Assembly: GCA_013140575.1 (NCBI GenBank)
Contig: JABFSN010000102.1
Coordinates: 1-35,784, forward strand
From: Phycisphaerales bacterium
Lineage (GTDB): Bacteria; Planctomycetota; Phycisphaerae; UBA1845
DNA: 35,784 bases
Direction of reading: 5' to 3'
Part shown: positions 4,448 through 28,129 of the stretch, in pieces
Numbering within the stretch: the first letter of the stretch is position 1
Layout of the letters: every line of letters starts with the position of its first letter
Made by a program: the position numbers and the translations under genes
Notes under the pieces: model-generated
Databases searched by the model: none
The model's input: the letters and a program-made list of their open reading frames with translations, nothing else
What the model was told of the DNA's origin: nothing

Positions 4448-4673
4448 CAGGATCTTCGGGATGTCCGATCGTAGTGGTTTGCAGTGATGTCTGGGTTTTC
4501 CGAGGGGTGGAGTGTCGGGTACCCGATGTGCCTGCCGCCCCTCCGGGGCTTAATGGCGGGCGCGACGGATCCGGGGGCTGACGCCCCCGGCTATTGACTG
4601 TCGCCCCTTCGGGGCTGTCGAACCGGCAACGAGTGACGGGCGCAGCGGATCGAAATCCAGCGGGGAGCAGGCG
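4448..4673. repeat. Palindrome array (planctomycete REP-like hairpins) between flgF and flgG
   Basis: The 226-base spacer carries four short palindromes: TCGGGTACCCGA at 4515-4526; GCCCC-tcc-GGGGC at 4537-4549; an 8-bp stem with TGAC loop at 4571-4590; and GCCCC-ttc-GGGGC at 4603-4615. None has a T run, so they are not typical intrinsic terminators. Similar GC-rich hairpins recur at 27866-28108 and 34242-34473. They are probably an interspersed repeat family inserted inside the operon. RNA hairpins here could modulate the flgF to flgG mRNA ratio. Confidence 0.6.
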
Positions 4674-8509: not shown

Positions 8510-8827
8510 ATGAGCGCGACAACGACCATGGCGAATGGTACGACAAGCGACGCCCGACGCGAGGTGTTGGCGAAACTACGCGAGACGATCAATCGCGTGA
8601 CCGGCGCCGTTTTCTATGGGCCGCTGCTGCGGTCGGCGCGGGGCGGATTGAACGACAATGGAATCGGGCGCGGCGGCCGAGGTGAATCCGTGTTTCAGGG
8701 GCAAATGGATCAGATTCTGATTGAGCGGGCAGGCGAGGCGTCCCATCACAATCTGAATGAGCTCCTGTTCGACCGGTTTGCGGCGGTCGCAATCGCGAAT
8801 GGCGCAGAGAGGCGCGAGGCGTCATGA
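8510..8827 (+). CDS. flgJ: Rod-binding protein, FlgJ N-terminal-type, no muramidase domain
   Basis: This 105-aa protein sits exactly where flgJ is found (after flgI, before the hook-associated genes). Its C-terminal half contains the F-x-G-Q-M-D-Q-I-L pattern of the short rod-binding (Rod-binding/FlgJ-N) family, a capping or assembly factor for rod growth. E. coli FlgJ (~313 aa) has a second, peptidoglycan-hydrolase domain that is absent here. Separate hydrolases do that job in many non-gammaproteobacteria. The call rests on position and a weak motif match. GGGAG precedes ATG 8510, and the stop overlaps the next gene as ATGA. Confidence 0.6.
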   Translation: MSATTTMANGTTSDARREVLAKLRETINRVTGAVFYGPLLRSARGGLNDNGIGRGGRGESVFQGQMDQILIERAGEASHHNLNELLFDRFAAVAIANGAERREAS

Positions 8828-9357
8828 CGAGAGTACACTTCAACGGCGGAGCAACGCTCGGCGCCGACGATCTGGCGGCACTGCTGGACCGGATCGCCGT
8901 ATCCTATGCGGCGTTGCACGAATGCCTGGAGGAGAAGCTTGCGTGTCTGCGGTGTGCTGAATTGGAGAACATCGATTCGTTTTTGGGGCGGGAGCGTCTG
9001 CTGGCAGCGCAACTGATCGAGCAGGACGGGATGCGCCGGCGCATCATGGAACAGCTCGGTCGGCCGTATGGCATGTCCGCGGAAAAGGCCCGGGGCATGC
9101 CGGTACGCCGACTGGCCGAGCGGCTGGGCGAGCCGCATTCGAGTCGACTGTGCGCGGCGGCCGACCGTTTGAAAGAGCAAATAGGCAGGACGCAGGCGCT
9201 GGCCGGGATGGTGGAGCGCGTGTCACGGGACGTGCTGGTTCATGTGCGCGAGATGTTCGCGGCCGTTGCCGCGCCGTTCGCCGGTGGCGAGGGATACTGT
9301 CCACGCGGAGCGACGCGGGGGAGTCGTCCCCGCGAATTGTTCGAGGCAGTGGGGTAA
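8824..9357 (+). CDS. flgN: FlgN-like export chaperone for the hook-associated proteins
   Basis: The 177-aa protein is largely helical, with Leu/Glu/Arg-rich heptad-like stretches across residues 10-140. This is typical of FlgN, the cytoplasmic chaperone that delivers FlgK and FlgL to the export gate. Its position immediately before flgK supports the call, since sequence conservation in this family is low. It overlaps the preceding gene as ATGA. The last ~25 residues are of different character (Gly/Arg/Pro/Ser) and are encoded over a 7-bp-stem palindrome at 9314-9334, which suggests the reading frame was extended by a repeat-like insertion. Confidence 0.65.
   Translation: MTRVHFNGGATLGADDLAALLDRIAVSYAALHECLEEKLACLRCAELENIDSFLGRERLLAAQLIEQDGMRRRIMEQLGRPYGMSAEKARGMPVRRLAERLGEPHSSRLCAAADRLKEQIGRTQALAGMVERVSRDVLVHVREMFAAVAAPFAGGEGYCPRGATRGSRPRELFEAVG
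9314..9334. repeat. Palindrome inside the 3' end of flgN
   Basis: CGCGGGG (9314-9320) and CCCCGCG (9328-9334) are a perfect 7-bp inverted repeat around GAGTCGT. A related sequence, GGGGA-ATCG-TCCCC, lies at 14266-14279 before the flagellin gene. The hairpin is 28 bases upstream of the flgK start and could affect flgN/flgK coupling. Confidence 0.45.
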
Positions 9358-9362
9358 GCGGC

Positions 9363-11090
9363 ATGGGACTGATCAATACGGCGTTGCAGGTCGGACGAAG
9401 CGCGCTTTTGACGTATCAAAGTGCGTTGCAAATAGTCGGCACGAACATTTCGAACGCCGGCAGTCCGGATTATACACGCCAGACGCCGGGATTGGCGCCG
9501 ATAAGCGGACCGCCGCTGCCGGAGGGAATGCGGCCCGGCGCCGGGGTGGCGTTGACATCGCTGAAGCGCAGTCTGGATGAATCACTGGAGAATCGCGTGC
9601 GGACGGCCATCGGAGACACGGAGTCGAGCGTGACGCGGCGACAAGCGATGACCGCAGTAGAAAACGTGTTTGATCCGCTCGTCGGCGCGCAATTGTCCGA
9701 GCGGCTAAGCGAGTTTTTCAACGGAATGAGTCAGCTGCAAAATGACCCCAGCGATTTGTCGACCCGGCAGTTGACCATCGCCGCCGGTACAGCACTGTCC
9801 GACACGCTACGGCAGATGCGGTCGTCACTGGTGGAAGCGGGGACGAATCTGAATGGGGAGATTGCCGGGCGGGTGGAGACGGCCAACGCACTGGCTGGGC
9901 GGGTTGCGGAGTTAAACGGCGCAATCGTCTCGGCGGAATCGGCGGGCTCGCCGGCCAACGCATTGCGCGATCAGCGGGACGCGGCCCTGCGCGGACTGGC
10001 CGAGATCGTGGACGTCCGTGTTCGGCCGCAGGGCAACGGGTCGTTTAACGTCTACGTGGGCAACGAGAGCCTGGTCGAAAGCGGCGTGTCCCGCGGGCTG
10101 AGGACGACGACGCGTCTAGACGGTGCGTTTGCTCGTGACGAGGTCGTGTTTGCAGACAACGGAGCGCAAGTGGCCATACACGGGGGGCAATTGCAGGGGT
10201 TAATCGCCGCGCGCGACCAGGACGCATTCGGGCGGCTGCAACAGGTCGACGAACTGGCGGCCGGGATCATATTTGAGGTGAACCGCGTACACAGTGATGG
10301 ACAGGGTGTGTCCGGGTATTCCGAACTAATCTCGTCGTACGCGGTGGCAGATACAGAGGCAGCATTGAATTCGGTCGAGGCAGGGCTGTCGTTCCAGCCT
10401 GTGAACGGCAGCTTTTACGTGGCCGTGCGGGATACGACGACGGGCGGGCTGCGCAGTTATCAGGTGCAAGTGGACCTGGACGGCGTGAATGATGATACAA
10501 CGCTGACGTCGTTGATCGAGGATTTGAATGATCACGTGCCCGAATTGACCGCGTCACTGACTGTAGACAATCGTCTCGAATTGACGGCCGATGCCGGTCA
10601 GGAGATTCTGTTCGGTTTCGACGGTCAGTCGCAGCGGGCGGATACGTCCGGTCTGTTGACAGCGCTCGGCGTCAACACGTTGTTCGACGGCACAGATGCG
10701 ACAAACATAGCGGTGCGCGACCAGTTGGTCGATCAGCCGTTGCTGTTGGCCGCGGCGTCGGTGGCGATCACGGGAGACGGGGCCAATGCGGGCCGATTGG
10801 CCAATGTCGGACAGTCGACGAGTGAGTTGTTGAACGGCGCGTCTATCGTGGATTTCTATGGTGCGGTGGCCGGCGAGGTCGGTGTGTCTATTTCAATCGC
10901 CGTGCGTGACGTGGACGCGAATAGCACCGTTCTGGACGCGTTGCAGGCGCAGAAAGAGAACATCAGCGGCGTCAGTCTGGACGAGGAGGCAATCGAGCTC
11001 TTGAAATTTGAGCGAGCGTTTCAAGGTGCGGCGCGCTACGTGAGCGTCGTGGATCGTCTGGCGGGCGAATTGATCGCGTTGCTGCAGTAG
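9363..11090 (+). CDS. flgK: Hook-filament junction protein FlgK (HAP1)
   Basis: The 575-aa protein forms the first junction layer between hook and filament. The N-terminus has L-x-x-x-Q-S-A-L-Q-I-V-G-T-N-I-S-N-A-x-x-x-D-Y-T-R-Q, the FlgK version of the axial-protein N-terminal helix. Next come the F-F-N-G-M-S-Q-L-Q-N-D-P-S motif (about residues 118-130) and a D0/D1 coiled-coil region. The middle (about 325-470) contains a Flagellin_IN-like insertion. The end has S-G-V-S-L-D-E-E-A-I-E-L-L-K-F-E-R-A-F-Q-, the FlgE/FlgK C-terminal signature. ATG 9363 is the correct start because upstream in-frame codons read antiphase to flgN. Spacing from flgN is 5 bases. Confidence 0.93.
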   Translation: MGLINTALQVGRSALLTYQSALQIVGTNISNAGSPDYTRQTPGLAPISGPPLPEGMRPGAGVALTSLKRSLDESLENRVRTAIGDTESSVTRRQAMTAVENVFDPLVGAQLSERLSEFFNGMSQLQNDPSDLSTRQLTIAAGTALSDTLRQMRSSLVEAGTNLNGEIAGRVETANALAGRVAELNGAIVSAESAGSPANALRDQRDAALRGLAEIVDVRVRPQGNGSFNVYVGNESLVESGVSRGLRTTTRLDGAFARDEVVFADNGAQVAIHGGQLQGLIAARDQDAFGRLQQVDELAAGIIFEVNRVHSDGQGVSGYSELISSYAVADTEAALNSVEAGLSFQPVNGSFYVAVRDTTTGGLRSYQVQVDLDGVNDDTTLTSLIEDLNDHVPELTASLTVDNRLELTADAGQEILFGFDGQSQRADTSGLLTALGVNTLFDGTDATNIAVRDQLVDQPLLLAAASVAITGDGANAGRLANVGQSTSELLNGASIVDFYGAVAGEVGVSISIAVRDVDANSTVLDALQAQKENISGVSLDEEAIELLKFERAFQGAARYVSVVDRLAGELIALLQ

Positions 11091-11127: not shown

Positions 11128-13062
11128 ATGGCCGTATCACCGATTAATGTCACACGTGTGTCGCACAATCTGCGGACGATGTCGCTGTTGCAATCGTTGC
11201 GGCAGAACACGACCGATCTGTTCAATCGTCAGACGCAGTTGGCGACCGGACGGCGGTTCAACAGCATCGGCGAAGACCCGGTGGGGGCGGCGCAGGCGCT
11301 GCGTCTGCGGCAGTCGTTGGGGCGGCAGGATCAGATTCTGGACAACCTCCGGCATGCCGATTTGATGCTGACCGCGTCGGACGACGCGTTGACCGAGGTC
11401 AACTCGCTGCTGGCGGAGGCCCAGGCGATCGGTGCGTCGAGCATCGGCGCCCAGGCCGGCCCCGACGAGCGGGTGGCGAATGCGTCGTTGATCGCGTCAA
11501 TCCGCGAGCGGCTGATGGCGGTCGGCAATACGCAGGTGCAGGGGCGTTATCTGTTCGCGGGCCGCGACACGCAGACGACGCCGTATGTGTCGGCGCTGGG
11601 CGGGGTCGCCTACGTCGGCGATACGGGCGAACAGTTCACGCAGGTGTCGGAATCGGAGCAGGGCAGTTTCAGCGTGCCGGGACAGCGTCTGTTCGGGGGA
11701 TTCGGCACCGCGATCATCAGCACGCGCGATCTGGAACCAGAATTGACGGAAGACACGCGTCTGGAAGACGTAGGCGGGGCCACGGGGCAGGGAATCCGAA
11801 GAGGGACGATCATCATCGGGGACGCGGCCGGCGCGTCGATGCAGGTCGACCTGTCGCACGCCGACACGGTGGGCGACGTGATCGACATGGTCAACGACGC
11901 CGCGGATCAACTGGGATTGGGGTCTCCGGTGCAACTGGACGGCGGCGGTCTATCAGTGACAGGTAGCGGCATCAACATCCGCGACACGAGCACGGGCCAG
12001 ACGGCATCGGACCTGGGAATCGTCGTGTCCGCGGACGATCCGCTCGCGGCCGTCGCACCTGATTTGACGCCGCGGCTGACGCCGAATTCGCCCATCGGAA
12101 GCCTGAACGCCGGGGTGGGCGCGACGCTGGAGGACGGGTTCCGCATCACGGTCGGTCCGCGAACGGTGACCATCGATCTGGACGAGGTTGAGACGGTGCA
12201 GGACGTGCTGAACAAGATCAACACGGCCGGCGTGTTCGTGACCGCGCGGATCAATGACGCGGGCACGGCCATCGAGATTACCAGTCGCCTGGCGGGCGTG
12301 GCCATGAGCATCAGCGAGAACGGGGGCACGACGGCGGCGGAGCTGGGCATTCTGACGTTCGCCCCGGACACGCCGGTGGCGATGCTGAATTCCGGGAGGG
12401 GTTTGGAAACGGTGGAGGGCGAGCCGGACCTGATGATCGCGGCGAGCAATGGGGACACGGTGGAGGTGAATCTGGACGGGGTCGAAACGCTGGGCGACGT
12501 GGTGGAAATGATCAATCAGGCCGCGGAGGACGCGGGGGTCACGATCGAGGCGGGCTTCAGCGAAGACACGAACGGCATCGTCATCACCGATTCCACGGGG
12601 GGGGCGGGACGATTGACGGTGACGCGGGCCAGCATCCAGTCGTTCGCGGTGGACGATCTGGGTCTGAACAAGACGGCGGCGGAGGGCGAGGAGTTCATTG
12701 TCAGCGACGACGTGGCCGTCGTGCGCCCCGACGGGTTGTTCACGGCGCTGATCGATCTGGAGACGGCGCTGGCGTCGAACGACGAGCGCGGCATCACCGA
12801 CGCGACCGGCCGATTGCAGACGGTGGCCGACGACATCACCCGCGAGCACGGCGTGGTCGGGTCGCGGGCGCGGTCGATGAGCGAGCGGGTGGAGCAGACG
12901 GAAAACGCGGTGACCGCATCGCAGGCGCTGCTGTCGGACATCGAGGACCTGGATTACACGGAAGCGGTGACGCGATTCCAGCAGGCGCAGACGGCGCTGC
13001 AGGCCAATTTGTTGTCCGGTTCGCAACTGTTGAATCTGTCGTTGTTGGATTTTCTGGGATAA
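11128..13062 (+). CDS. flgL: Hook-filament junction protein FlgL (HAP3), enlarged with three internal repeats
   Basis: FlgL is the second junction protein and is related to flagellin. The N-terminus (V-S-H-N-L-R-T-M-S-L-L-Q-S, then R-Q-T-Q-L-A-T-G-R-R-F-N-S-I-G-E-D-P) and the C-terminus (L-x-D-x-D-Y-T-E-A-V-T-R-F-Q-Q-A-Q-T-A-L-Q-) are typical. At 644 aa it is about twice the usual length of 300-400. The excess is an insertion at about residues 215-515 made of three ~90-residue Flagellin_IN-like units (215-300, 320-410, 417-515). Each has a beta-strand, a D-V-x-x-x-I-N/V-N helix and an I-T-S/T-D-S ending. These should project from the junction surface. It is probably the last gene of the sigma-54 operon, 37 bases after flgK. 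Confidence 0.92.
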   Translation: MAVSPINVTRVSHNLRTMSLLQSLRQNTTDLFNRQTQLATGRRFNSIGEDPVGAAQALRLRQSLGRQDQILDNLRHADLMLTASDDALTEVNSLLAEAQAIGASSIGAQAGPDERVANASLIASIRERLMAVGNTQVQGRYLFAGRDTQTTPYVSALGGVAYVGDTGEQFTQVSESEQGSFSVPGQRLFGGFGTAIISTRDLEPELTEDTRLEDVGGATGQGIRRGTIIIGDAAGASMQVDLSHADTVGDVIDMVNDAADQLGLGSPVQLDGGGLSVTGSGINIRDTSTGQTASDLGIVVSADDPLAAVAPDLTPRLTPNSPIGSLNAGVGATLEDGFRITVGPRTVTIDLDEVETVQDVLNKINTAGVFVTARINDAGTAIEITSRLAGVAMSISENGGTTAAELGILTFAPDTPVAMLNSGRGLETVEGEPDLMIAASNGDTVEVNLDGVETLGDVVEMINQAAEDAGVTIEAGFSEDTNGIVITDSTGGAGRLTVTRASIQSFAVDDLGLNKTAAEGEEFIVSDDVAVVRPDGLFTALIDLETALASNDERGITDATGRLQTVADDITREHGVVGSRARSMSERVEQTENAVTASQALLSDIEDLDYTEAVTRFQQAQTALQANLLSGSQLLNLSLLDFLG

Positions 13063-13200: not shown

Positions 13201-13320
13201 CGCGTCGCGTTCACCACACGAAGACCCATCGGGGTCCGCGTGGGGTGCGGGGGTCGGTCGGATGGACGACCGGCGCGCGACGTGGATCGACGAAGAAGGA
13301 ACGACCACGGGAGTGTGGCG

Positions 13321-13770
13321 ATGATCATTGAAACGTCGCGATTCGGGCCGCTGGAGGTGGACGGCGACCGGCTGATCACCTTCGAACGGGGCATTTTGGG
13401 TTTCCCCGATGAGCAGCGGTACGCCCTGATCCAGACGGGCGAGCAGAGTGCGTTCTACTGGATGCAGGCGGTCGATCGCGAGGACCTCGCGTTCGTGGTG
13501 TGCGACCCGCGGATGTTCGTCCCGGATTATCGCGTGCCGGTCAAAACCGACGATCTGGCGATGATCGGCGTCGACGATCCCGACCAGGCCCAGGTGTTCA
13601 TCATTGTCAACAAGATCGATGACGTGCTGACCGGGAACCTGCAGGGTCCGGTGGTCATCAACGTGCGGACCCGCGCGGGACGCCAACTCGTGCTTTCCGA
13701 CCGGAAATTCTCGACCCGGCACCCGCTGATCCGGCTGCCGAAGGAGAAGGCCATGAGCCGAACCGCCTGA
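13321..13770 (+). CDS. fliW: Flagellar assembly factor FliW, CsrA antagonist
   Basis: The 149-aa product (family 130-160) carries the FliW pattern I[18 protein letters not shown] near the N-terminus. It also has F-Y-W-M-Q-A-V-D-x-x-D-L-A-F-V-V-x-D-P, and the C-terminal [11 protein letters not shown] and R-H-P-L-I-R-L. In Bacillus and Campylobacter, FliW binds flagellin; when flagellin is exported, free FliW binds CsrA and relieves repression of flagellin translation. Here fliW, csrA and the flagellin gene are adjacent and in the same direction, so the same switch is likely. GGGAG lies about 8 bases before ATG 13321. Confidence 0.92.
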
Positions 13771-13970
13771 ACCCCCGGCGCTGGCGACACGGTTCGCCGT
13801 TCGGTTATCATGCTCGCGCGAAACGGAGCACGCCGAACGGCCGGACGGTCGCCCGACCGGTCCGCGTGTCCGCCCGCCCGTCACGAATCGACGCCCTGCG
13901 TCGCCGTGCGGAAGGGAAACGGGCACGCGGGTTTCACCGAGCATCGGCACAGCCGAGGAAGGAGCCGAGG

Positions 13971-14225
13971 ATGTTGGTGCTGTCCAGGCAACGCGATGAA
14001 TCGATCATGATCGGCGATAACATCGAGATCACGATCGTGGATATACGCGGCGACAAGGTGCGTCTTGGAATCGCGGCCCCCACCGAGGTTCCCGTGCATC
14101 GCAAGGAAGTTTACGAAGCGATCAAACGGGAGAACCTGTCGGCCGCCGCGATGAAACCCGACGACCTGACCAACGCCGCCGAGCGCGATGCGTCCGATCG
14201 GAACCGGAAACGCGACGCTCGCTAG
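13971..14225 (+). CDS. csrA: Carbon storage / translational regulator CsrA
   Basis: The 84-aa product begins [15 protein letters not shown], the invariant first strand of CsrA. It includes G-D-K-V-R-L-G-I-x-A-P and the second RNA-contact strand P-V-H-R-K-E-V-Y. These residues build the two GGA-binding faces of the homodimer. The C-terminal ~25 residues are a polar tail, longer than in E. coli (61 aa). CsrA binds GGA motifs over ribosome-binding sites and blocks translation. Its own leader has two GGA motifs (AGGAAGGAG, 13955-13963) close to the ATG, so it may be autoregulated. It lies between fliW and the flagellin gene. Confidence 0.95.
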
Positions 14226-14242
14226 CTCGTCGAGAATCAGGA

Positions 14243-14265
14243 GTCGCCGCACGGATCGCGGCGAC
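14243..14265 (+). promoter_or_regulatory. Predicted CsrA-binding stem-loop in the flagellin leader
   Basis: GTCGCCGC (14243-14250) and GCGGCGAC (14258-14265) form a perfect 8-bp stem. The 7-base loop reads ACGGATC, which places GGA (14253-14255) in a hairpin loop with the flanking A and T of the CsrA consensus. Further GGA motifs lie at 14240-14242 and 14268-14270, and two overlap the flagellin ribosome-binding site. A CsrA dimer could bridge the loop site and the ribosome-binding site about 95 bases away. CsrA binding is inference from motif, structure and gene context. Confidence 0.6.
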
Positions 14266-14279
14266 GGGGAATCGTCCCC
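14266..14279 (+). promoter_or_regulatory. Second small hairpin in the flagellin leader
   Basis: GGGGA (14266-14270) pairs with TCCCC (14275-14279) around ATCG. It abuts the CsrA-type stem-loop and hides one GGA motif in its stem. It resembles the palindrome at 9314-9334, so it could instead be a short interspersed repeat. Confidence 0.35.
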
Positions 14280-14345
14280 AGCGAACATACGCCCACGCGC
14301 CGCCCGTTGCGTTCAAGCGCCGCGCGCCGCGTGCGTGAATCAATC

Positions 14346-14355
14346 AGGGAGGATT
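14346..14355 (+). promoter_or_regulatory. Flagellin ribosome-binding site overlapping CsrA motifs
   Basis: AGGGAGGATT contains a strong Shine-Dalgarno sequence (GGAGG, 14348-14352), 7 bases before ATG 14360. It has two overlapping GGA motifs (14348-14350 and 14351-14353). CsrA bound here would exclude the ribosome. This site also settles the start: TTG 14354 lies within the element and is not used. Confidence 0.6.
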
Positions 14356-14359
14356 GAAC

Positions 14360-15832
14360 ATGAGCCGAATCAATTCGAACATCCCGGCCGTCACCGCCGG
14401 GTTTCAACTCGCGCGAAACCAAAACGCATTGTCGACGTCGTTGGAGCGGCTGTCCAGCGGATTGCGGATTAACCGCGGGGCCGACAACCCCGCCGGTTTG
14501 ATCGTGTCCGAACGGCTGCGGGCGGAAATCTCCGCGGTCGGGCAGGCCATCGACAATTCCCACCGGGCGATCAACGTGATCGCCACGACCGAGTCGGGCC
14601 TCGACGGGGTATCCACCCTCTTGAACGACATTCAGGCGCTGGTGGTGGAGGCCGCCAACTCCGGCGCTTTTTCCGACGACGAAGTGCAGGCCAATCAGCA
14701 GCAAATCGACTCGGCGATCGATTCGATCAGCCGCATCGCCAACACGGCGACGTTCGCGGGCAAGAAGCTGTTGGACGGCGGTCTCGACTACGTGACCAGC
14801 GGCGTCAATACCACGCTTCTGGCCGATGTTGGTGTTCTGGAGGCCAACTTCGGCGACCGGCCGTACATTCCCGTGGACGTATCCGTTTCACAATCGGCGT
14901 TGCAGGCCGAACTCCATTTCGCCGCCAGCGCCATCGGGAACCAATCGATCAGCATCGACATCCAGGGCGCGGCCGGCATCATCACCCTGACGTTCCCGGC
15001 CTCGACCACGACCAACGAAATGGTCACGCAGATCAACGGCGTGTCCGACGCCACCGGCGTGATCGCCTCGGCCAACGGGTATACCGTGGGCGGTCCGGCG
15101 CTGACCGCGTCGGGCGTGGTGCTGATGAGCGAGCGCTACGGCTCCAAGGCGTTCGTCAGCGTCAGCGTGCTGCAGAACAGCGCTCCGTTCTTCCTGCAGG
15201 ACCGCGCCGGCGTCACCGTGGACGGCACGGTCGGCGGCGGGCGCCGCGAGGGCCGGGACGCGGCCGCGACCATCAACGGAGCGGCCACCGTGGGCGACGG
15301 GCTGAAGCTTAAGCTTTCCTCCTTCCTGCTGGATCTGGACATTGTGCTGGACACCAGCTTCGGCGCGCAGACCACCTCGTTCGCGATTACCGACGGCGGC
15401 TCGCTCTACCAGTTGGGACCGCGGGTCAATGTCAGTCAGCAGGAGAGCATCGGGGTCAAGTCCATGCAGGCCAACAAGCTCGGCAACCGCGTCGTCGGGT
15501 TCCTGTCCGAGTTGCAAAGCGGCGGTCCCAAGGCGCTGCGCACCGGGAACTTCAACGGCGCGTCCGAAGTGCTGGACGAGGTCATCACCCAGGTGGCCGT
15601 CCTCCGCGGGCGGCTGGGGGCGTTCGAGCGTAACAAGCTGCAACCCAACATCAGCCAGTTGCAGATCGCGGTGGAGAACCTGACATCGTCGGAGTCGATC
15701 ATCCGCGACACCGACTTCGCGCAGGAAACCACGGAATTGACGCGTGCGCAGATTCTGGTGCAATCCAGCACCAGCGTCCTGGCCATCGCCAACGCCCAGC
15801 AGCAAAACGTGCTGTCGCTGCTCGGCGGATAG
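14360..15832 (+). CDS. fliC: Flagellin, filament subunit
   Basis: The 490-aa protein is the polymerising subunit of the filament. The N-terminal D0/D1 region contains the flagellin landmark L-E-R-L-S-S-G-L-R-I-N-x-G-x-D-N-P-A-G-L (about residues 29-48). The C-terminal D1/D0 region has A-V-E-N-L-T-S-S-E-S-I-I-R-D-T-D-F-A-Q-E-T and ends in the conserved Q-x-L-V-Q-x-x-x-x-V-L-A-I-A-N-x-Q-Q-Q-N-V-L-S-L-L. The central ~200 residues (about 165-370) are variable, with a Flagellin_IN-like unit around 195-275 and a Gly/Arg-rich turn near 295. Neither fliD nor fliS follows, which differs from many flagellin loci. Regulation by FliW-CsrA is predicted from the leader, and a strong terminator follows. Confidence 0.95.
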   Translation: MSRINSNIPAVTAGFQLARNQNALSTSLERLSSGLRINRGADNPAGLIVSERLRAEISAVGQAIDNSHRAINVIATTESGLDGVSTLLNDIQALVVEAANSGAFSDDEVQANQQQIDSAIDSISRIANTATFAGKKLLDGGLDYVTSGVNTTLLADVGVLEANFGDRPYIPVDVSVSQSALQAELHFAASAIGNQSISIDIQGAAGIITLTFPASTTTNEMVTQINGVSDATGVIASANGYTVGGPALTASGVVLMSERYGSKAFVSVSVLQNSAPFFLQDRAGVTVDGTVGGGRREGRDAAATINGAATVGDGLKLKLSSFLLDLDIVLDTSFGAQTTSFAITDGGSLYQLGPRVNVSQQESIGVKSMQANKLGNRVVGFLSELQSGGPKALRTGNFNGASEVLDEVITQVAVLRGRLGAFERNKLQPNISQLQIAVENLTSSESIIRDTDFAQETTELTRAQILVQSSTSVLAIANAQQQNVLSLLGG

Positions 15833-15875
15833 GATCTGAGCAAAGCTTCGGAAGTCAGCAGGTAGTCCAATATGA

Positions 15876-15910
15876 CGGGCATCGGTCACAGCACGACCGG
15901 TGCCCGTTTT
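15876..15910 (+). terminator. Rho-independent terminator after the flagellin gene
   Basis: A 12-bp stem (15876-15887 with 15895-15906, one T-G pair) and a 7-base loop are followed by TTTT. It closes the fliW-csrA-flagellin block. Confidence 0.88.
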
Positions 15911-27789: not shown

Positions 27790-28129
27790 CAACACGAGCG
27801 ATTCGTTTCACGAGTCGGCGGTCGGCGGCGATGTGAACGGAACATCGCCAATAGTTCGTGTAAATCGTCCCGCAGGGACGCGATGAATGTAGCCCAGCAC
27901 TTCAGTGCTGGGATGACGGCCGGTCTTTGATTCCGTTAGTCCCGAAGGGACGGCTGAAGCGGAAGGCAGCGTTTCAGCCGTCCCTTCGGGACTCGGCGTC
28001 ACCCGGACGGTAGCGTTCCCCGCGTTGAAACGCGGGGCTACGTTCAGGCCTGCCTGCGGCCGGCAACCCCCGGAAACGCGAAACACATAGGTGCCAACAT
28101 TTGGCACCGTCTAGAAGCACTGTAGACGT
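27790..28129. repeat. Array of palindromes (REP-like) between msrAB and cheY
   Basis: The 340-base gap contains a dense set of hairpins: CGTCCC-gca-GGGACG (27866-27880); CCCAGCAC-ttca-GTGCTGGG (27893-27912); a perfect 21-bp inverted repeat with a 14-base loop (27938-27958 and 27973-27993); a CCCCGCG hairpin (28018-28037); and GGTGCCAA-cat-TTGGCACC (28090-28108). Several share GCA or GAA loops. The two flanking genes converge here, so the RNA hairpins may also act as bidirectional terminators or 3'-end stabilisers, although no T run follows. There is no gene in this stretch. Confidence 0.7.

Follow-up and report, generated by a model that had tools for sequence, protein, structure and literature searches.

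The flagellin gene of the Phycisphaerales bacterium examined here directly follows fliW and csrA, which raises the question of whether its leader is a translational switch repressed by CsrA and controlled by FliW. Control of CsrA by FliW in Planctomycetes has previously been proposed from gene content (PMC4682653), and a search of the open-licence literature by title and the start of the abstract returned no study of a planctomycete flagellin leader. We consider it very probable that the leader is such a switch. Hairpins carrying the CsrA mark are kept by matched base changes in relatives, and a switch of the Bacillus/Campylobacter type therefore very probably works here. This would extend a feedback loop demonstrated in a few phyla to Planctomycetota by evolutionary evidence at the RNA level, beyond the presence of the genes.

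The window, i.e., the whole stretch of DNA analyzed (35,784 nt), is an entire contig; judged by FliW, most of its closest named relatives are MAGs carrying the label Phycisphaerae or Planctomycetota. Its plus strand carries, in this order, flgN (8824–9357), flgK (9150–11090), the gene of an FlgL-like protein (11128–13062), fliW (13321–13770; 149 aa; Pfam FliW, 2.5e-35; PDB matches 2aj7_A and 5dmb_A), csrA (13971–14225; 84 aa; Pfam CsrA, 3.2e-26; PDB match 5dmb_D), and the flagellin gene fliC (14360–15832; 490 aa; Pfam Flagellin_N, 2.3e-32, and Flagellin_C, 7.4e-19); flgN, flgK, and flgL were assigned by Pfam, the names flgK and flgL being our reading of the domain matches. The identities of fliW, csrA, and flagellin, which the initial annotation had placed side by side in this way, are confirmed by Pfam. 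The leader between csrA and flagellin is 134 nt long. On the 3′ side of fliC, folding revealed a terminator-like 14-bp hairpin with a TTTT run at its end (15874–15908, plus strand), which is absent from the terminator scan list. FliS is also found in the genome.

Relatives were collected through FliW, so that the presence of fliW is given in what follows. csrA and then flagellin came next in order in 163 of 166 such loci, a number that includes 80 added named loci. Three loci (L057, L124, and L126) were dropped because they had no flagellin match, and L001 and L024 (both the window itself) as well as L002 (a second CsrA-like match) were left out of the locus set. Collapsing identical leaders and spacers gave 94 distinct fliW-csrA-fliC loci from Phycisphaerae and near kin, the window included. 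The second CsrA-family match in the window genome (L002, 1501–1662; G000:C97:1761-1922) is weak, at 27.6 bits.

The general element of the predicted module is the hairpin at the ribosome-binding site (RBS), not the one further upstream. The initial annotation had noted two GGAs overlapping the flagellin RBS about 95 bases downstream of a first hairpin; they occupy 14348–14350 and 14351–14353 within the Shine-Dalgarno sequence AGGGAGGA (14346–14353), and the ANGGA starts of the upstream and RBS sites are 95 nt apart in the window. What it overlooked is a separate hairpin that presents the RBS in its loop (UCAAUC-AGGGAG-GAUUGA, 14340–14357, plus strand); the centroid fold shows it, and comparison of the 94 distinct leaders supports it. 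The predicted CsrA site of this loop (site 2, AGGGA; 14346–14353, plus strand) overlaps the Shine-Dalgarno sequence and is put forward from motif conservation. In 91 of the 94 loci the motif TCANGGAGG lies no more than 30 nt from the flagellin start, the exceptions being L022, L113, and L114; it is absent from the csrA leader and from the fliW leader in all 94. Counted letter by letter over the 94 leaders, it reads T (93), C (94), A (92), a variable position (A 49, G 23, C 13, T 9), GGAGG (94), A (92), and T (87). A fixed A and GGA around a free N match ANGGA, the recognition pattern of CsrA (PMC4894983).

The two arms of the RBS hairpin have changed together. The mean folding energy of 66 distinct hairpins is −4.02 kcal/mol, compared with −2.61 kcal/mol (sd 0.18) when their 3′ arms are swapped, and none of 300 swaps was as low. 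When pairs 3–6 were scored over 74 distinct rows, 74.0% of the positions were paired with a covariation of 0.318, as opposed to at most 37.2% and 0.167 in slid registers. The exact 12-mer TCANGGAGGATT occurs five times in the window genome, and only the fliC copy precedes an ATG with a long frame; a second copy (L171) is followed by an 81-aa frame that opens with TTG, and the other three have no nearby start.

The upstream hairpin, SL1 (14243–14265, plus strand), is exactly as the initial annotation had described it: a perfect 8-bp stem formed by GTCGCCGC (14243–14250) and GCGGCGAC (14258–14265), with ACGGATC (14251–14257) in the loop. The loop presents a predicted CsrA site of the form ANGGAU (site 1, ACGGAT; 14251–14256, plus strand). 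The window holds 217 ANGGA sites when both strands are counted, and the three framed by the longest perfect stems are those at 14251 (8 bp), at 14346 (6 bp, the RBS site), and, ahead of fliW, at 13262 (6 bp). Dinucleotide shuffling of the leader's first 106 nt gave an 8-bp ANGGA stem in 2 of 5000 trials; the overall stability of the 150-nt stretch is unremarkable (z = −1.43; equalled by 17 of 200 shuffled sequences).

In a midpoint-rooted FastTree phylogeny built from FliW, CsrA, and the flagellin N-terminus, the window falls in a clade of eight members with a support of 0.99 (the window, L014, L030, L035, L036, L039, L053, and L067), whose leaders can barely be aligned except at the hairpins and around the start. 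All eight have an ANGGA starting 17–28 nt past the csrA stop codon; its distance from the RBS ANGGA is 88–102 nt in seven members and 54 nt in L067. At site 1, A and GGA are kept in all eight, N is variable, and the following T is kept in seven. The initial annotation had proposed to judge the stem by its fold and by covariation among relatives. This check did not refute its proposal: seven of the eight members have a stem that covaries while enclosing an ANGGAU loop (in L053 only a degenerate form can be made out by eye), but the element is limited to this small clade. For the seven aligned members, L053 being left out, covariation was 0.458, compared with 0.198 in shuffled alignments (0 of 500 reached the observed value) and at most 0.238 in slid registers; 89.1% of the pair cells were standard (0 of 500 shuffles), and nine cells had changed on both sides (1 of 500). 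Two further measures were unremarkable, namely four pairs changed on both sides (reached by 66 of 500 shuffles) and eight further pair types (202 of 500).

Distal ANGGA hairpins exceeded shuffles over the wider set: those at or below −8 kcal/mol numbered 10 in 92 leaders, against a mean of 2.6 and a maximum of 6 in 60 shuffles. When all 64 triplets were compared by energy in 92 leaders, two leaders of 45 nt or less having been left out, GGA was barely first (11 leaders, against 10 each for GAC, GAT, and GCC); by strict pairing in the 93 distinct leaders then in hand, it was more clearly first (8 against 5, with a median of 0). SL1 is lineage-specific, being confined to one small clade and not general in the class. 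The leaders of L030 and L039 contain further ANGGAs; in each, SL1 is followed by another strong hairpin whose loop presents one, which makes three predicted CsrA sites.

The covarying arms of the RBS hairpin, and an SL1 stem that changes while ANGGAU stays, speak against an explanation without CsrA, in which the RBS hairpin would be only a strong Shine-Dalgarno sequence whose folding is incidental or resembles a thermosensor, and SL1 would be an unrelated hairpin serving RNA stability or processing. In favour of that explanation, the Shine-Dalgarno core is GGAGG, flagellin is highly expressed, and 20 of the 66 distinct RBS hairpins are less stable than −3 kcal/mol. A small and crude control drew 20 further GGAGG starts from these loci. 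There, too, A is the commonest letter at the position fixed in the flagellin leaders (12 of 20) and is less dominant at N (8 of 20), so the argument from a fixed A and a free N is only one of degree; the flagellin leaders keep this A in 92 of 94 cases and the TC before it in 93–94, compared with 12, and with 5 and 8, of the 20 control starts. The motif is also missing from all 17 flagellin starts read in the FliW-less genomes described below. We regard an explanation without CsrA as improbable. Less probable still is that SL1 marks the end of the csrA transcript, i.e., a terminator outside the flagellin leader: it starts 17 nt past the csrA stop codon, as such an element might, but no T-run follows it, it is absent from the terminator scan list, and its loop ANGGA is kept while N and the stem vary.

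The proteins agree with a CsrA-FliW switch acting on the leader. CsrA has L4, R6, V42, and R44 in all 94 distinct loci, and the L4 and R44 region is what we take to be its RNA-binding part. Equally invariant (94 of 94, the window included) are I51 and N55, the FliW-contact residues; V/I51 and N55 are needed for FliW binding in Campylobacter jejuni, and N55 in Bacillus subtilis (PMC7829508). The best solved relative of CsrA is 5dmb_D and the second best of FliW is 5dmb_A, which are chains of one FliW–CsrA complex. The window holds the RNA-binding CsrA residues, the FliW-contact residues, and a linked fliW, and by motif and hairpin a putative CsrA site over the flagellin Shine-Dalgarno sequence and, in the window's clade, a second one upstream.

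Relatives without FliW provide a natural contrast. We took 20 listed genomes of the 198 in the phylum without a FliW match; 6 of them had a CsrA match and 10 had flagellin-type matches, and their 30 loci gave 17 usable flagellin starts. Five of the CsrAs were read (L248–L252, all from one family of Phycisphaerae), the sixth, a weak match in G201, being left out. All five have K55 instead of N55 and keep L4, R6, V42, and R44; the N55-to-K55 change in this family is perhaps one event. As the FliW-containing counterpart, 29 new loci from 95 other genomes of the wider phylum gave 18 flagellin starts. The motif is present in 12 of these 18 and in none of the 17 FliW-less starts (Fisher, 3e-5, uncorrected for kinship, in which the two sets differ). 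Within the class of the window, the contrast is 8 of 8 versus 0 of 10; outside it, 4 of 10 versus 0 of 7, which is no strong contrast; there, 6 of the 10 FliW-containing starts have no motif. The FliW-less start of L219 comes close, with TCCAAGGAGGATT. CsrA with K55 beside flagellin starts without the site makes the co-evolution of the three parts directly testable.

CsrA might instead bind and repress here with FliW being no antagonist, a reading to which we give very little credence. The FliW–CsrA step rests on homology, and the linkage of fliW is partly a product of selection, as the loci were collected through FliW. Against this stand the occurrence of FliW in 50 of 51 genomes of the window's family (and in 59 of 60 of our first sample, the window genome counted in both), N55 in 94 of 94 CsrAs where the five FliW-less ones examined have K55, and the match of both proteins to chains of the 5dmb complex. 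The small RNA CsrB (RF00018, the sole Csr/Rsm family searched) was also not found in the window genome, which is 96.47% complete, while the E. coli control was positive.

Together with the gene order, the hairpins, their conservation and covariation, and the conserved CsrA residues observed here, the Bacillus and Campylobacter systems (PMC4894983, PMC7652899, PMC6529632, and PMC6070490) point to how the switch would work. From them we infer binding, repression, FliW antagonism, the partner switch between FliW and flagellin, and bridging by the dimer. A CsrA dimer would bind the loop ANGGA of the RBS hairpin (14340–14357) and block ribosomes from loading, and in the window's lineage its second RNA pocket would be anchored on the ANGGAU loop of SL1 (14243–14265), 95 nt upstream. 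Free FliW would bind the CsrA helix around I51/N55 and lift the repression, while unexported flagellin would sequester FliW, so that CsrA would stop flagellin synthesis until export resumed. The initial annotation had read the leader as a CsrA switch, and this reading is supported by an RBS site that is conserved and covarying in nearly all 94 loci and by the kept CsrA residues; as CsrA binding and FliW antagonism are carried over from other bacteria, the support is at the level of sequence only.

How the genes are transcribed bears on the wiring of the switch. The fliW-csrA spacer, 200 nt long in the window, contains a sigma70-like promoter (GCGACA-16-TATCAT; 13784–13811, plus strand), and relatives have one at a similar position. 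Of the 94 spacers, 29 contain TATAAT, for which the window has TATCAT, and in 25 of these it lies 22–44 nt past the fliW stop codon; none of the 94 stretches comprising the csrA 3′ end and the leader contains it. Spacers with a promoter score of at least 8 numbered 58 of 94, where mononucleotide shuffling yields about 15. Four sigma28- and sigma54-like patterns, sought between fliC and a point 300 nt ahead of the leader, matched in 0, 0, 0, and 1 of 94 loci, the single match being loose. The k-mers enriched in the csrA 3′ end and leader were for the most part coding-like or rich in GC, and TATAAT was not among them. With no recognised promoter before fliC and a csrA-fliC gap of only 27 nt in L077, csrA and fliC may share one message; an unrecognised fliC promoter is possible.

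A conserved element ending in AGGAAGGAGCCGAGG precedes the csrA ATG (13941–13970, plus strand). Its consensus before the ATG is gcatcggcatggcc.aGGAAGGAGCCgagg, with two GGAs; AGGAAGGA is found at the csrA start in 67 of 94 loci and ANGGA in 89. RNAalifold gave essentially no consensus structure for this leader (energy −0.6), and we therefore claim sequence conservation alone; it is possible that the element is an autoregulatory CsrA site. About 60 nt upstream of fliW, a perfect 6-bp hairpin with ANGGA (13255–13272) was considered as a third CsrA site and rejected because the hairpins of relatives carry other loops: many form a hairpin of 6–8 bp about as far from fliW, but its loop reads, for example, gtggt, tgg, gtgt, or tcggt (45 of 94 loci listed). 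More tentatively, and with considerable doubt, we suggest that in Phycisphaerae csrA has a housekeeping promoter to itself just past fliW and a GGA-rich leader that serves autoregulation, that flagellin is cotranscribed downstream, that intercistronic CsrA hairpins set the CsrA-to-flagellin ratio within one mRNA, and that loss of FliW accompanies N55K and loss of the flagellin CsrA site. If this were true, repressor and target would share one mRNA in Phycisphaerae.

Overall, the locus combines a Campylobacter-like RNA layout with a Bacillus-like gene order, the order in Bacillus being similar to the fliW-csrA-flagellin order of the window. As described for the C. jejuni flaA leader, one ANGGA stem-loop is followed by another that lies on the RBS, with compensatory changes among relatives and FliW present (PMC4894983). 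The 5′UTR of C. jejuni is 45 nt long and fliW lies apart from csrA (PMC4894983), whereas in the planctomycete the sites are 95 nt apart, fliW, csrA, and fliC are adjacent, and the upstream hairpin is limited to one small clade. The B. subtilis hag leader, again compared by description, likewise has two CsrA sites, one of them over the Shine-Dalgarno sequence (PMC6529632 and PMC7652899). In that bacterium the FliW:CsrA ratio is partly set by translational coupling, and further limits on the levels have been predicted (PMC6529632); the planctomycete differs in that fliW and csrA are separated by a spacer in which a sigma70-like promoter and the conserved leader of csrA are found. The wiring may differ from known systems: csrA itself has a conserved promoter, and none was recognised before fliC. 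FliW and CsrA are also described as acting together in Clostridioides difficile and Geobacter (PMC8523840, PMC11898703, and PMC13407953), a likeness that extends to the locus studied here in the proposed action of FliW with CsrA. Apart from the flagellar genes, the window contains two Acido-Lenti-1 RNAs (RF01687), at 4571–4616 on the plus strand (57.1 bits) and at 27866–27912 on the minus strand (44 bits).
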